Below are positions 7,729-12,096 of a stretch of 64,000 bases of DNA, piece by piece. Source of the DNA: an uncultured Pelagibacteraceae bacterium (GTDB lineage Bacteria > Pseudomonadota > Alphaproteobacteria > Pelagibacterales > Pelagibacteraceae); NCBI GenBank assembly GCA_902578935.1, contig CACHEU010000001.1:310001-374000 (forward strand). Direction: 5' to 3'. Numbering within the stretch: the stretch's first letter is position 1; the number at the start of each line of letters is the position of its first letter. A model generated the notes under the pieces. That model ran no database searches, was not told where the DNA came from, and was given only the letters and a program-made list of their open reading frames with translations. Position numbers and translations under genes: made by a program.

Positions 7729-7774
7729 AGGACAGTAATTCTAGATCATAAAAAACGTCAATTTCTTTGCTAGG

Positions 7775-7792
7775 TGAGTCCGTATTGAGTCC
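7775..7792 (+). repeat. Paired TGAGTCC repeat, 11-bp period
   Basis: TGAGTCC occurs at 7775-7781 and 7786-7792, exactly 11 bases apart. The unit and spacer closely resemble the TGCGTC repeats near 9934 and 11730. It overlaps the likely -35 box of the nuclease gene (TTGAGT at 7785-7790). It may be an integrase arm-type site, a regulator site, or both. Confidence 0.45.
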
Positions 7793-7813
7793 AACGGTGT
7801 GAAAGGTTATGGT
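7785..7813 (+). promoter_or_regulatory. Predicted promoter of the HNH nuclease gene
   Basis: TTGAGT at 7785-7790 and TATGGT at 7808-7813 are 17 bases apart. The -10 box ends six bases before the ATG at 7820, so transcription would begin at or next to the start codon and give a leaderless message. The same geometry occurs before the genes at 9979 and 18090. Confidence 0.45.
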
Positions 7814-7819
7814 GTGTCT

Positions 7820-8818
7820 ATGATTTCTTCAACATTAAAAGAAATTGCATCTAAATATTTAGATGAAAAAAATACACCAATAGCAAATAATAAATTTGCA
7901 TCTTTTGTTAGAGAGGCGGCTAAAGAAAAAATTAAGCCTAAAGTTAAAAAAAATAGAGATCATTTTTTTTATAAAAGTAGTCCAGGAAGACCTCCTCATT
8001 GGGCAGATGTACCTTGGATTGGTATTTATGATCCAAACGTCACTACTACAGCGCAGCATGGCTATTATATAACTTATCTATTTTCTATAGATATGAAGAG
8101 GGTATATCTAAATTTAAATCAAGGAATGACAGACTTAGAAAGCGAACTCGGACCTAAAGGAGCTGCTCAAGAACTATTAAGAAGAGCAGAATTTATTCGC
8201 GATAGAGTTAAGGAATATAAAAAATCTTTTAACGATAAACCTATTAATCTTTCAATTGATTTAGCAGGAAGTACAAAAAGACCAATGCTTTATGAAAAAG
8301 GTTTTGCTTTTGGAAAAGAATATGACTTAACAAAAGATTTAAATGAAGAAGAGCTAACTATCGATCTTAACAATATGATTGATTTGTATACTATGTTGGT
8401 TTTTAGAGGTGGAACTGATCCCGATATAGTAGATGATTATGTTTCTGATGATATTGGTGAAGAGGAAGAGGAGGAAAAAAAAGAAGAAACTTTAATAGAG
8501 AAAAGAAGAAAAAAACTCCATAGAACAACTGAAAGATCAAGTACCAACGCAAGAAAAGTTAAACAAAAGTTAGGCTATACTTGTGAGGTTTGTGGTTTTA
8601 ATTTTAAAGAAAAATTTGGAGATATTAGTTTAAATAAAAAAAAGGAGGAATTCATCGAAGCCCACCATAAAATACCTGTACACACACTTCCTGAAAATGA
8701 GACAATAGAATTTAAAATTGATGATTTTGCTGTTCTATGTTCTAATTGTCATCGGATGGCGCATAAAAGAAAAGAGCCATATACCATAGAAGAATTAAAA
8801 GGATTTTTAAAAAAATGA
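7820..8818 (+). CDS. DUF3578 (McrB N-terminal-like) / HNH endonuclease
   Basis: The 332-residue protein joins two domains. The N-terminal half contains HWADVPWIGIYD and YITYLFSID..VYLNLNQG, the pattern of DUF3578, also found at the N-terminus of McrB-type restriction subunits. An acidic linker (about residues 213-225) leads to an HNH nuclease: CEVC (about 254), EAHHKIP (about 279-285) and LCSNCHRMAH (about 306-315), with four zinc-type cysteines and the catalytic His pair. Such fusions are modification-dependent restriction enzymes acting on foreign DNA. I choose the ATG at 7820 because a promoter overlaps the alternative GTG at 7799. The stop overlaps the next ATG by four bases. Confidence 0.75.
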   Translation: MISSTLKEIASKYLDEKNTPIANNKFASFVREAAKEKIKPKVKKNRDHFFYKSSPGRPPHWADVPWIGIYDPNVTTTAQHGYYITYLFSIDMKRVYLNLNQGMTDLESELGPKGAAQELLRRAEFIRDRVKEYKKSFNDKPINLSIDLAGSTKRPMLYEKGFAFGKEYDLTKDLNEEELTIDLNNMIDLYTMLVFRGGTDPDIVDDYVSDDIGEEEEEEKKEETLIEKRRKKLHRTTERSSTNARKVKQKLGYTCEVCGFNFKEKFGDISLNKKKEEFIEAHHKIPVHTLPENETIEFKIDDFAVLCSNCHRMAHKRKEPYTIEELKGFLKK

Positions 8819-9741
8819 AAAAACTTTTAGGGATCTTGGTTCTGGGTTTGTTGTGGAGTGGCCCTGTGGTAGCAAGTTGTAGTGACTTTTTAGATTTCTC
8901 CTGGAAATTTGTTGGAAAAGATAGAGTCACGCATGTCAATAGTAGTAATGCTCATTACGCAGAATTTACTTTTAAAAGCACTTCCGACAAAACAATTAGA
9001 ATAAACTTTGTAAGATTAACTACAGCAGATGGTAAAATAGTTAAAAAAGATGAGTATGTTGATTTTTATATTAAACCTTTTGGCAAAGATAGTGATTTAA
9101 TGTACGGCATGAAATCTCTAAATTTAGATGTTGTAACGTCTGGAGGTTATTCATGTAGATTTGAAAATCAACCAGCAAAAAAAACCTCAACAACAAATAG
9201 CAACAAATCAAACAACACTGAGGAAAGTCCAGCATTAGTTCTCCTAGTAGTTTTTGCCATCATAGGTTTTATTATCTATAAGCTTGTAGGTTCAAAAAAT
9301 AATCCCGACTCTAATTTTACTAGTAAGTCACAACCTGCTTCTTCTAAATATCAAGTATCACCAAATAAAAATTTACAAAAAAATACCGTCAAAATTTTAT
9401 CAGTAAAGGAATTTAATAAAAAAATTAAAAATTATATACCATCACATCAGGTTGCTAGTCTTCCCAGAATAGGTGATGTAGAGGGACAGGAATTTCAATG
9501 TGGTTGTGGAAAATCTCATATTATGAATTTTAATCAACATTACTTTATTGCGGATGGAGGTATATATAAGGCTGTTTTTTTATCTCCAGCTTGTGGATAT
9601 CTAAATGCACTAAAATTAAAAGGACCAATGACAACTGGTATTAAAAATTTATGCAGTACAAAATATTTAGCTAATAAACCAAAATATGGTTTTAATGATT
9701 ATCCAGATATAGCCGGATCGATTGATAAGTATTTTAAATAA
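8815..9741 (+). CDS. Unknown secreted/membrane protein coupled to the HNH nuclease
   Basis: The 308-residue protein is of unrecognised family. It has a signal peptide (MKKLLGILVLGLLWSGPVVA), an extracytoplasmic part of about 115 residues, a low-complexity Ser/Thr/Asn linker, one membrane segment (about 140-160), and a C-terminal part with CGCGKSH (about 228-234) and two further cysteines that could bind metal. The ATG overlaps the nuclease stop (ATGA), so translation is probably coupled. This may mean a joint role or mere packing. The signal sequence is nearly the same at DNA level as in two later genes. Confidence 0.7.
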   Translation: MKKLLGILVLGLLWSGPVVASCSDFLDFSWKFVGKDRVTHVNSSNAHYAEFTFKSTSDKTIRINFVRLTTADGKIVKKDEYVDFYIKPFGKDSDLMYGMKSLNLDVVTSGGYSCRFENQPAKKTSTTNSNKSNNTEESPALVLLVVFAIIGFIIYKLVGSKNNPDSNFTSKSQPASSKYQVSPNKNLQKNTVKILSVKEFNKKIKNYIPSHQVASLPRIGDVEGQEFQCGCGKSHIMNFNQHYFIADGGIYKAVFLSPACGYLNALKLKGPMTTGIKNLCSTKYLANKPKYGFNDYPDIAGSIDKYFK

Positions 9742-9773
9742 TTCCCCCGCGCACGCACTTTGCCTGTCGTCAC

Positions 9774-9794
9774 TGTGATCAGATTGTGATCAGA
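9774..9794 (+). repeat. Paired TGTGATCAGA repeat, 11-bp period
   Basis: TGTGATCAGA at 9774-9783 is repeated at 9785-9794, an 11-base period, 41 bases to the left of the core repeat. The layout mirrors the TGCGTC pair that lies 44 bases left of the 11791 core. A candidate arm-type binding site of a different integrase specificity. Confidence 0.45.
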
Positions 9795-9835
9795 ATTTTA
9801 AAAATGTTTAATTGATTAGTGTTTAAGTCGATTCG

Positions 9836-9861
9836 AAGGGGCGTTCTGTTGCCAGGTGCCC
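9836..9861. repeat. Exact 26-bp duplicate of the tmRNA 3' end (attachment-site core)
   Basis: All 26 bases are identical, in the same orientation, to 11791-11816, which is the 3' end of the tmRNA coding piece. Direct repeats of the 3' end of a tmRNA or tRNA gene are the usual trace of site-specific integration by tyrosine recombinases. The two copies bound a 1.95-kb segment with three genes. Confidence 0.75.
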
Positions 9862-9933
9862 TTAACCTCATTTCGTTAATCCTCGTTATATAATAATTAT
9901 TTTACAACCTAAAGCCCAAAACTGGTTCTTCAG

Positions 9934-9962
9934 TGCGTCGGTATTGCGTCAGAAATTGCGTC
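9934..9962 (+). repeat. Triple TGCGTC repeat, 11-12-bp period
   Basis: TGCGTC occurs at 9934-9939, 9945-9950 and 9957-9962, so the units lie on one face of the helix. The array is 72 bases inside the island from the 9836 core. The middle unit overlaps the likely -35 box of the next gene. Confidence 0.5.
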
Positions 9963-9972
9963 GGGCTATAAT
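9944..9972 (+). promoter_or_regulatory. Predicted promoter of the 9979 gene
   Basis: TTGCGT at 9944-9949, a 17-base spacer and a perfect TATAAT at 9967-9972. The ATG at 9979 lies six bases after the -10 box, so the transcript is probably leaderless. The -35 box is part of the TGCGTC array, so a protein bound there could repress transcription. Confidence 0.55.
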
Positions 9973-9978
9973 TAATCG

Positions 9979-10845
9979 ATGTTTTTTTTGAAGAGACTAC
10001 GACAGGCTGCAGTTGGAATAGCGGGTCTTTTTTCAGTCCCGTTCGGAAAAAAAATTGAAAAATCTTTCACTAAAATTATTGATGATAAACCTACCATCTA
10101 CGACGATAAAATAGATAAATTTTATAATGAAACCCATATAGGTGGTTTCACGCACAGACATTTTGATGGAAGTCATAGCCCTATTCAAATGTGGGAAAAA
10201 GTTAAAGCAACATTACCCGATGATACAAATTTTGAAGAATTTAAAAATTATGTCTTATCTTTATCCAAAGATCTTCAGACTACAATGGGTATACCATTAT
10301 TTAATATAGATAATAAAGAGGCCTACGATAAATTTGCTAATTATATGAGCTCTAACTTTTCTGTTAAGAAAAGTTGGTTGCTAGATATTCAAAGCGTTAA
10401 TCTAGCTGAAATTTTTGGTGCAACACTTGGAGTGGTATCATTAATGTTTGGCTGGAAACAAAAAGAAAAAGAAGAGTTTGCTAATCATGCTTCAAGTTTA
10501 ATTTTAGCTGGTGCTGTATCAGCTAATCCTATCCTATTAATAGTGTCACTAGTTTCTTGGGCAAAATCCTACACAAAAAATAAAAATAAAAAGGCATTCA
10601 AAGAAGGAACGATCAAAGGTTTGCTTGGTATGGGTTCATTTATAATGTCAGCAAGCTTATTTGCTAGCCCCTTGTTGGGAATAATAATTGGTTTGGTTGT
10701 TTTAATCGTTGTTAAAAGAAAACTTAAAAAAATTGAAGTTTCAGAGATTTATGACTGGTTTAAAAAACAAATTAAAGAACACGGAAAAGTCCTTGCGGCT
10801 ATGGGTGGAGGCGCAGGAATAGCAGTTATGATGGGAGGTTTATGA
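9979..10845 (+). CDS. Unknown integral membrane protein with HRHFDGSH motif
   Basis: The 288-residue protein belongs to no family I can name. A soluble N-terminal half contains FTHRHFDGSHSPIQMWEKV (about 57-75), whose clustered His and Asp could form a metal or catalytic site. The second half has hydrophobic segments at about 148-160, 174-194 and 212-244, then a basic amphipathic stretch and a Gly/Ala/Met-rich tail (about 271-288). It is the first gene of a three-gene run inside the 9.84-11.8 kb island, overlapping the next by four bases. Confidence 0.65.
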   Translation: MFFLKRLRQAAVGIAGLFSVPFGKKIEKSFTKIIDDKPTIYDDKIDKFYNETHIGGFTHRHFDGSHSPIQMWEKVKATLPDDTNFEEFKNYVLSLSKDLQTTMGIPLFNIDNKEAYDKFANYMSSNFSVKKSWLLDIQSVNLAEIFGATLGVVSLMFGWKQKEKEEFANHASSLILAGAVSANPILLIVSLVSWAKSYTKNKNKKAFKEGTIKGLLGMGSFIMSASLFASPLLGIIIGLVVLIVVKRKLKKIEVSEIYDWFKKQIKEHGKVLAAMGGGAGIAVMMGGL

Positions 10846-11141
10846 AAAAACTTTTAACGATTGTAGTTCTAGGTTTGTTATTAAGCGGCAATGCTTATGC
10901 TGGTAAATATGAAATGGAACAAGCTGCAAAAACAATTCCAGGAGTTGCTGATGCTGCTTTCCAGGGAAGCTCATCTTTTTGGGTTGTAATGTCAAACCCT
11001 AATGCTGGTCATGATTTTGATTATTATGGATCAATGTTATGTAACGGTGGTCAACAAAAATTTGGTGTAGCCAAAGGATATACTATTACTTTTTGGAATG
11101 CATATACCAAAAAGCCAATTAAAAAATTTAGATGTTATTAG
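10842..11141 (+). CDS. Small unknown secreted protein
   Basis: The 99-residue product has the signal peptide MKKLLTIVVLGLLLSGNAYA followed by about 79 mature residues with two cysteines (a possible disulfide) and a pattern VADAAFQGSSSFWVVMSNPN. No family is recognised. The start overlaps the upstream stop (ATGA) and its own stop overlaps the next start by one base, so the three genes are co-translated. The signal-peptide coding DNA is a close copy of those at 8815 and 11141. Confidence 0.65.
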   Translation: MKKLLTIVVLGLLLSGNAYAGKYEMEQAAKTIPGVADAAFQGSSSFWVVMSNPNAGHDFDYYGSMLCNGGQQKFGVAKGYTITFWNAYTKKPIKKFRCY

Positions 11142-11701
11142 TGAAAAAACTTTTAGCGATCGTGGTTCTGGGTTTGTTGTGGAGTGGCAGTGCATCAGCG
11201 GATCAGGCTCAATTATTTGGTATAAAACTTTACAAAGATTTATTCCAGTCAATTGACAAAGATACGTGGCTCAAGGAAAAATGTATTAATAAAAGTTCTT
11301 ATAGTGCATTTATTAGATATCAAGAAGTCCCCTTGTATAACGATATGTTTCCATCAGTTAAAGCGGAGGTAGATAAGTGCAAAGTTTTTGCAGTTTGGGG
11401 AACAGGATTTTTTAAGAAAAAATCTAAATGCAGAAAAAATATTGAACCAATAATGCAAGTTACACTAAAAAGACTTAAAGAAGATTATAAAATTTCAGAA
11501 ATTAAAAAAGGCAATCCATTGAAAGATGATAATTTTTCTAAATCAGCCAACATTTCTGGCAATGGAAAAGAAATGACTTTGTATGGTTATTGTTTTAAAG
11601 ATCCTCAAGGATATTTTATGGATTATGGAATTGTTGACAATACAAAAGCCAAGCACCACTCTAAATATTTAGGAGTTACAAACCTTAAAAAAGGACTATA
11701 A
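11141..11701 (+). CDS. Unknown secreted protein with the shared signal cassette
   Basis: The 186-residue protein has signal peptide (M)KKLLAIVVLGLLWSGSASA and then an unrecognised lysine-rich mature part with six cysteines, which suggests periplasmic disulfides. I take the GTG at 11141 as start, because it aligns with the start of the two sibling signal peptides and overlaps the upstream TAG by one base; an ATG at 11132 would add three residues. It is the last gene before the tmRNA attachment site. Confidence 0.62.
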   Translation: MKKLLAIVVLGLLWSGSASADQAQLFGIKLYKDLFQSIDKDTWLKEKCINKSSYSAFIRYQEVPLYNDMFPSVKAEVDKCKVFAVWGTGFFKKKSKCRKNIEPIMQVTLKRLKEDYKISEIKKGNPLKDDNFSKSANISGNGKEMTLYGYCFKDPQGYFMDYGIVDNTKAKHHSKYLGVTNLKKGL

Positions 11702-11729
11702 AATTTTAAATGTCAAAACTTTTTCTCAC

Positions 11730-11746
11730 TGCGTCCATAGTGCGTC
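11730..11746 (+). repeat. Paired TGCGTC repeat, 11-bp period
   Basis: TGCGTC occurs at 11730-11735 and 11741-11746, the same unit, period and orientation as at 9934-9962. It lies 44 bases inside the right core repeat. No gene starts downstream on this strand, so a promoter role is unlikely here, which favours an integrase arm-site reading. Confidence 0.5.
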
Positions 11747-11786
11747 ACAAAATTTTTAATTGTTGGTATTAAAGAAGAATCAGAGA

Positions 11787-12047
11787 TTTAAAGGGGCGTT
11801 CTGTTGCCAGGTGCCCCGAACCCCGTTTACTTAATTAACAAGTTAATTAAGCAGCAAGTGCAAATTTATTATTTGCATTTATAATTAGCCCGTTACGTCG
11901 GAACCATCTCGAACGAAAGAATAGCTTTTAGACACTCGTCGATTCTGATTCACCCCCATAAGTTGTAAATGGTGGAGGTGGTGGGTACTGCCCCCACGTC
12001 CGCAATGTTTATTACGAAACTCGTTTATCGTCATAGTTGGAAAACCA
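11787..12047 (-). ncRNA. ssrA: Permuted two-piece tmRNA
   Basis: On the minus strand the acceptor piece (about 12047-11970) ends CACCTCC-A-CCA. After a 12-base excised spacer (11969-11958), the coding piece begins GGGGGTG at 11957. The two ends pair over seven positions (one G-U), which proves the permuted order known in Alphaproteobacteria. The T stem GTGGG/CCCAC closes a loop GGCAGTA. The tag frame reads ANNKFALAA then stop (11876-11847). A nine-base-pair AT stem follows (arms CTTAATTAA and TTAATTAAG), then a GC-rich 3' pseudoknot-like end. It rescues stalled ribosomes and marks the products for proteolysis. Confidence 0.9.
11791..11817. repeat. tmRNA 3'-end core repeat (right copy)
   Basis: The final 26 to 27 bases of the tmRNA coding piece, folding as part of its 3' pseudoknot-like structure. 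They are duplicated exactly at 9836-9861 and partly at 6455. This is the likely attachment core, kept functional after each insertion because the incoming copy restores the RNA end. Confidence 0.75.
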
Positions 12048-12053
12048 ACAAAT

Positions 12054-12083
12054 ATAATATAAAATTTAAAAAAAAAGATTCAA
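12054..12083 (-). promoter_or_regulatory. Predicted tmRNA promoter
   Basis: Reading leftward, TTGAAT (12083-12078) is followed after 18 bases, including a run of nine Ts, by TATTAT (12059-12054). This puts transcription start near 12047, at a GTTGG-TTTT-CCAAC hairpin that would cap the acceptor piece. Confidence 0.5.
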
Positions 12084-12096
12084 TAAGTATTTCTAA

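Follow-up and report, generated by a model that had tools for sequence, protein, structure and literature searches.

The ssrA (tmRNA) locus of this Pelagibacteraceae genome, like that of many other sampled genomes of the family, carries small cassettes that encode no integrase, that abut a constant core, and that bear short phased words at both ends which tend to agree within one element; such cassettes have been transferred between genera. The best explanation of these features as a whole, to which we assign a probability of about 0.86, is that the words are tyrosine-integrase arm sites flanking the ssrA core on cassettes that would be moved in trans, with the word picking the integrase. Given the layout, the period of the repeats, the agreement of words between ends, the variation of words among elements and the recurrence of the same layout at integrase-bearing elements, the phased words are very probably the arm sites of trans-mobilised cassettes.

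The ssrA locus of the window

The window, meaning the whole 64-kb stretch of DNA analysed here, contains an ssrA gene, with its 3' end serving as the integration site. A 24-bp core occurs twice, both copies being perfect; no third copy was found in the 1.0-Mb assembly when up to 3 mismatches were allowed. The two ssrA 3'-end copies bound element 1, as follows:

11790..12087, minus strand: ssrA, a permuted two-piece alphaproteobacterial tmRNA (Rfam RF01849, 223.5 bits; ARAGORN tmRNA*)
11793..11816, plus strand: core A, within the intact ssrA 3' end, read as the regenerated att site (sequence)
9838..9861, plus strand: core B, a displaced copy of the ssrA 3' end (sequence)
9838..11792, no strand assigned: element 1, a 1955-bp integrase-less cassette with putative TGCGTC arm sites at both ends (cores, arms)
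9862..9933, no strand assigned: conserved distal att scaffold, "scaffold A" (...TTCGTTAATCC..TTATATAATAATTATTTTACAACCTAAAGCCC...; right-flank alignment, group of 72)
9934..9962, plus strand: putative distal arm triple of element 1, TGCGTC at 9934, 9945 and 9957 (sequence, shuffles)
9967..9972, plus strand: TATAAT immediately behind the third arm word and 6 bp upstream of the ATG at 9979 (sequence)
9979..10845, plus strand: cargo gene 1, 288 aa, probable membrane protein (relatives in elements L080.0 and L070.2)
10842..11141, plus strand: cargo gene 2, 99 aa, with a secretion signal-like N terminus (ORF)
11132..11701, plus strand: cargo gene 3, at most 189 aa, with a secretion signal-like N terminus (ORF)
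11730..11746, plus strand: putative ssrA-proximal arm pair of element 1, TGCGTC at 11730 and 11741 (sequence, shuffles)

The positions given in an earlier note on this DNA for the TGCGTC words, and for TGTGATCAGA at 9774 and 9785 in the neighboring element, are exact. The near-equal spacing of the two proximal pairs from their cores, also reported there, holds as a pattern, with gaps of 43 bp (9795-9837) and 46 bp (11747-11792) that are close to the 41 and 44 originally given. The offset of -63 seen for the proximal pair of element 1 recurs in several genomes of the same genus, and the offset of about +96 seen for its distal triple likewise recurs in other genomes of that genus. Lone TGCGTC words show no enrichment within the window (9 observed, 6.6 expected), whereas phased TGCGTC pairs number 3 against 0.00 expected in shuffles. 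Exact pairs of at least 6 bases with an 11-bp period number only 11 in the 64-kb window, four of them being the element ends (7775, 9774, 9934 and 11730). The TATAAT at 9967-9972 is probably the -10 box of a cassette promoter overlapping the arm region, an activity predicted from sequence.

Element 2 lies to the left of core B:

7737..9837, no strand assigned: element 2, integrase-less, with a truncated distal end (ORFs, arms, scaffold)
7737..7816, plus strand: remnant of distal att scaffold B (comparison with scaffold B members)
7775..7792, plus strand: putative distal arm pair of element 2, TGAGTCC at 7775 and 7786 (11-bp-period pair scan)
7817..8818, plus strand: cargo gene for a protein with MrcB_N and HNH domains (Pfam PF12102, 2.4e-49; PF01844, 1.5e-6)
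8815..9741, plus strand: cargo gene, 308 aa, with a secretion signal-like N terminus (ORF)
9774..9794, plus strand: putative ssrA-proximal arm pair of element 2, TGTGATCAGA at 9774 and 9785 (sequence)

At the far end of element 2 the core and the first part of the scaffold are missing; the junction, near 7736/7737, adjoins the stop codon (7728) of a methyltransferase-like gene, and the far arm pair and scaffold remnant sit directly before the ATG at 7817. The words at its two ends differ, TGAGTCC at the far end and TGTGATC at the near end, which makes element 2 a mosaic. The TGTGATC pair has its single occurrence in the assembly here. The earlier note had interpreted the layout as the attL/attR ends of elements with different specificities; the arm-site reading is supported, also by the same layout at integrase-encoding tRNA elements described below, while element 2, with its unlike words, shows that a single specificity for each element is common without being universal. 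Since no integrase is encoded in either element, both are non-autonomous.

The MrcB_N and HNH protein of element 2 is probably, by its domains, a modification-dependent (type IV-like) restriction endonuclease. Its gene has 18 nt (7883-7900) in common with the tag-coding stretch of the tmRNA; a shared peptide, ANNKFA, in an AT-rich genome is the simplest account, and the identity is probably a coincidence. The cargo genes at 8815, 10842 and 11141 begin with nearly the same 47 bp (79-96% identical as DNA), encoding the secretion signal MKKLLxIxVLGLLxSG, and the largest cargo cluster (66 ORFs) seems to be united by a similar N terminus; the near-identical starts and common N terminus suggest that signal peptides are shared between cassettes.

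Arrays and putative arm words across SAR11

The core, with at most 2 mismatches, was found in 337 of 397 genomes of the family, often as several same-strand copies within a few kb (up to 8), and it also occurs in named Pelagibacteraceae contigs, many of them bearing AG- isolate names (as given to single-cell genomes). Sixty SAR11 ssrA loci together with the window yielded 163 core-to-core elements; as these loci were selected for having several cores, frequencies among them are not population estimates. The elements have a median length of 826 bp and range from 98 bp to 13.7 kb (n=163), and an arm scaffold was recognised in 85 of them, leaving 78 without one. Their cargo consists chiefly of short ORFs in many small clusters, and includes trypsin-like proteases, methyltransferases, superoxide dismutase, rhodanese, MrcB_N, DUF2784 and other Pfam families as well as small secreted proteins. 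Core copies resident in ssrA are perfect in 51 of 51 recognised cases and displaced copies in 62 of 159, with decay greatest at the last base; perfect resident cores beside decaying displaced ones are to be expected if insertions entered a functional RNA gene one after another.

Some genomes (G051, G083, G103 and others) have a second core site far from the first. In G083 the sites lie at 15.7-18.3 kb and 102-103 kb of one contig, and in G103 a core on the other strand (C2:61184) has TGAGTCC arms; we read these distant sites as secondary insertions or rearrangements. Several cassette families, including one with a DUF2784 gene, have the core without arms and a gene that starts right at the core (L045.1, L048.0, L051.2 and 8 others), and are perhaps fixed old insertions or the product of another mobilisation route.

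Phased pairs, defined as exact repeats of at least 6 bases with a period of 10-13 and scored in 50-bp windows around the core, occur in 29% of these scoring windows to the left of the core (-90 to -30) and in 29-31% to its right (+40 to +110), over a background of 1-3% in most of the surrounding sequence and up to 5% in the farthest left bins. When periods from 7 to 20 were scanned, period 11 accounted for 62 hits on the left, where no other period exceeded 5, and for 43 on the right, where the next was period 12 with 15; the period-11 peak is absent from control regions. For 25 of 56 proximal pairs the word turns up at least twice in the same element's distal flank (permutation mean 3.9, maximum 11 over 2000 permutations); it does so in none of 34 distal flanks of the next element and in 3.7% of flanks at other loci. 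Among 33 further elements from other loci, 8 have a proximal pair, all of period 11, and in 4 of these 8 the word matches at least twice (permutation mean 0.86, maximum 4), a small sample with the same trend. The presence of the same phased word on both sides of the core is thus true as a population trend and for element 1 of the window, but not for element 2, and words also differ between the ends of several of the further elements.

The earlier note took as contrary evidence repeats lying mainly upstream of unrelated promoters genome-wide, or missing from other tmRNA-linked islands. TGCGTC pairs are instead confined to ssrA arrays (25 of 25 occurrences in 31 genomes of the same genus), and other ssrA islands carry arm repeats as well. 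When compared by hand, 23 of the 25 pairs stand at -63/-74 or +95/96 from a listed core, and the other two, both in G056, lie inside an array where the intervening core seems to have been lost.

The variation of arm words over a fixed core that the earlier note anticipated was observed in the 60 SAR11 ssrA loci, with the same trend in the 33 further elements. More than 20 words were seen (TGCGTC, TGTGATC, TGTGCCC, TGAGTCC, TGTGAC, ACGAGT, CCGCCC, CCGAA, TCCCGTACA, GCGATC and others). Alignment of the distal flanks resolves a few scaffold families in which the sequence from core to word is conserved and the words vary. One cassette, 96% identical over 823 bp, is present in two genera (G056 and G189, whose aligned ssrA genes are 84% identical) and has its two ends marked by TCCCGTACA pairs in one and by TGTGCCA pairs in the other; this is the one switch at both ends among near-identical cassettes. 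Others, 93-98% identical, have a changed proximal word (TGTGATCA versus TGCGTC, TGTGATC versus TGTGCCC, TGCGTC versus TGTGAC). Because the words vary by cassette while the insertion site is the same, each cassette appears to be addressed to a different borrowed integrase.

Candidate helpers and alternative explanations

The assembly of the window (G000) has a single PF00589 protein, of 310 aa and thus Xer-sized, on another contig. None of the PF00589 matches listed for 58 array genomes lies inside an array, nor did an HMM of SAR11 integrases, which recovers its positive controls, detect one in the array loci analysed. The viral contigs and SAR11 data scanned, in which incomplete genomes could hide a helper, yielded neither an integrase nor a phage with the ssrA core, so that the helper is inferred. 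Viral contigs with the exact 20-bp core were only phages with a complete tmRNA gene, in which no integrase was seen, and degenerate-core matches in viral contigs were dismissed as chance GC-rich sequence. Scans of viral contigs for arm pairs (CACTGCGTCCATAGTGCGTC; TGTGATCNNATTGTGATC) returned none, apart from unrelated matches, and scaffold scans gave no matches. Pelagiphages HTVC019P and HTVC011P showed no convincing phased arm pairs near int, and no ssrA core in the 14 kb examined. In IMG/VR phage contigs L094, L096-L098 and L100-L103, the 3' end of a complete tmRNA gene equals the SAR11 ssrA core exactly over 24 bp, and such phages could supply cores or take them up.

Integrase-bearing elements of 4-6 kb are found at tRNA genes elsewhere in the family (L297 216-5889, at tRNA-Met of G049, with its integrase gene at 315-1328; L304, L300, L306, L299 and L302). 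Their integrases have an N-terminal extension ahead of the catalytic domain, and phased words stand between the tRNA 3' end and int (TGACACA in G049, TGACGA in G167, TCCGGCACA in G094, a GGAC-type word in G216). The word is clearly repeated at the far end in these four genomes and weakly so in G007 and G017. A search for relatives that started from one of these integrases returned one viral relative, at tRNA-Met, with the word TGACGC. A primase/helicase-type AAA_25 protein is encoded in four of the tRNA elements and a terminase small subunit in two, firmly in G049 and at the border of the cut-off in G007. With this combination of tyrosine integrase, AAA_25 protein and terminase small subunit the elements look like phage satellites, which by gene content they probably are, and they are candidate helpers. 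At tRNA-Met of G049 a 5.67-kb element with int is followed by a 1.39-kb element without it, TGACACA being present at both ends of each; this pair shows the layout of the ssrA cassettes beside its likely helper. A matching integrase next door was found only there, the ssrA loci having att sites and no integrase.

An alternative, that the words are operators of regulators controlling the cassette promoters, is quite improbable. The distal block does immediately precede a TATAAT-like box and the first gene, integrase promoters themselves are often overlapped by arm sites, and the overlap of the distal block with a probable promoter makes a regulatory role possible on that side; an integrase bound there might also repress the cassette. 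However, equal phased pairs follow the last gene at a constant spacing from the core, elements that carry an integrase have this two-ended arrangement at tRNA cores too, and words agree between the two ends of one element and not with the next, so that operators alone are rejected by the two-ended layout and the agreement within elements. It is very improbable that a host Xer-like recombinase moves the elements and that the phased repeats bind accessory proteins, even though G000 and most array genomes have no tyrosine recombinase other than a single Xer-sized protein of ~310-325 aa: Xer sites need no arms, more than 20 words are hard to explain by one conserved host protein, and the same phased words border the genes of those SAR11 integrases that carry an N-terminal extension.

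The possibility that the cassettes are fixed relics, old accretions that nowadays spread solely through homologous recombination between cores and scaffolds, we regard as unlikely. It would account for the decay of displaced cores, for the recurrence of some armless cassette families in many species (groups of 11, 8 and 6) and for an element 2 without a distal core, but it sits poorly with cassettes that are 96-98% identical over 0.8-1.6 kb at different array positions, once in two genera, and with the persistence of matched arm words at both ends. Homologous recombination may nevertheless add to the mosaics. Chance or low-complexity repeats in an AT-rich genome have a negligible probability; the lack of enrichment of single TGCGTC words in the window is as such a reading expects, but random repeats are refuted by the shuffles, in which no pairs are expected, and by position, period and word agreement far above control.

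Under the preferred reading, that the words are integrase arm sites, the core is the 23-24 bp ssrA 3' end with arms on both sides, set in a string of small integrase-less cassettes. An armed cassette consists of the core, a distal arm block (2-4 words in 11-bp phase, starting about 60-75 bp inside the core), usually a promoter-like box, 1-3 genes, and finally the same word again as a proximal pair, which leaves about 43-46 bp to the next core. A phage, or a satellite with an integrase gene, would provide in trans the integrase that bridges arms and core, and a circular cassette would be excised from, or inserted at, the core, with ssrA rebuilt each time. The word would determine which integrase moves the cassette.

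Related systems and implications

The K1 mycobacteriophages (CrimD, Adephagia, Anaya) have tyrosine integrases and a 24-bp core at the extreme tmRNA 3' end, and their attP carries 11-bp arm-type repeats on both sides, with an arm consensus that varies among relatives sharing the core (PMC3203893). They are whole phages with their own integrase, inverted arms on the two sides and small arm changes (PMC3203893), whereas the SAR11 elements lack an integrase, measure 0.1-13.7 kb (median 0.83 kb), lie in tandem, and have direct arms whose words are nearly wholly changeable. The combination of own integrase and phage genes that marks a K1-like tmRNA prophage is absent from the ssrA elements. The ssrA islands of Dehalococcoides are likewise tandem and bounded by ssrA 3'-end repeats, and about half of them (15) lack an integration module and were proposed to be cis-mobilizable; they differ in their serine recombinases (DsiB/DsiA), 20-bp repeats and larger size (integration modules alone are 9-11 kb), and no arm-site code is described for them (PMC3146451).

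Integron cassettes recombine as single-stranded attC hairpins. The SAR11 arrays resemble CALIN, strings of small integrase-less cassettes movable in trans (PMC11389934), but differ from integrons and CALIN in having a double-sided att with arms beside the tmRNA gene and many cassettes that seemingly have their own promoter. An integron attC reading was rejected, as what recurs is the tmRNA 3' end, flanked by arms on both sides, and the arrays contain no integrase. As far as the available part of its description goes, the additive flexible genomic island at tRNA-Lys of Methylophilaceae is similar in its recurring tRNA 3'-end repeats and streamlined aquatic host and different in site and host, and that part describes no arm sites (PMC10872708).

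The tRNA-borne 4-6 kb elements of SAR11 are comparable to tycheposons, VEIMEs and PICI-like satellites (PMC11389934) in their tyrosine integrase, AAA_25 protein and, in two, terminase small subunit, whereas the ssrA cassettes lack the satellite genes for integrase, AAA_25 primase/helicase-like protein and terminase small subunit. The PICI-like set of integrase, primase/replicase and terS is accordingly incomplete in the ssrA cassettes; it is present in element A of G049 (tRNA-Met) and, with a borderline terS match, in G007. An overview of SAR11 makes no mention of an integrase or direct repeat (PMC7318151). We found no description of the SAR11 combination of features in the open-licence literature searched, and an earlier description elsewhere is possible.

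More tentatively, and at somewhat less than even odds, SAR11 may possess an integron-like cassette system without an integrase of its own, in which a changeable arm "address" selects a phage or satellite integrase and near-identical cassettes have swapped addresses, in some cases at the two ends alike, within a conserved att scaffold. If true, helpers and hitchhikers would be in an arms race over integrase recognition. The arm words are a readable and testable code that may link a cassette to a class of integrase, and cassettes that have kept their genes and changed their words offer a means to study the evolution of integrase specificity. SAR11 is among the most abundant bacterial groups, is streamlined, and has few known routes of gene gain; tandem arrays of cassettes from under one to a few kilobases long, at the tmRNA gene in many sampled genomes of the family, provide a tangible path along which species and genera can exchange genes.
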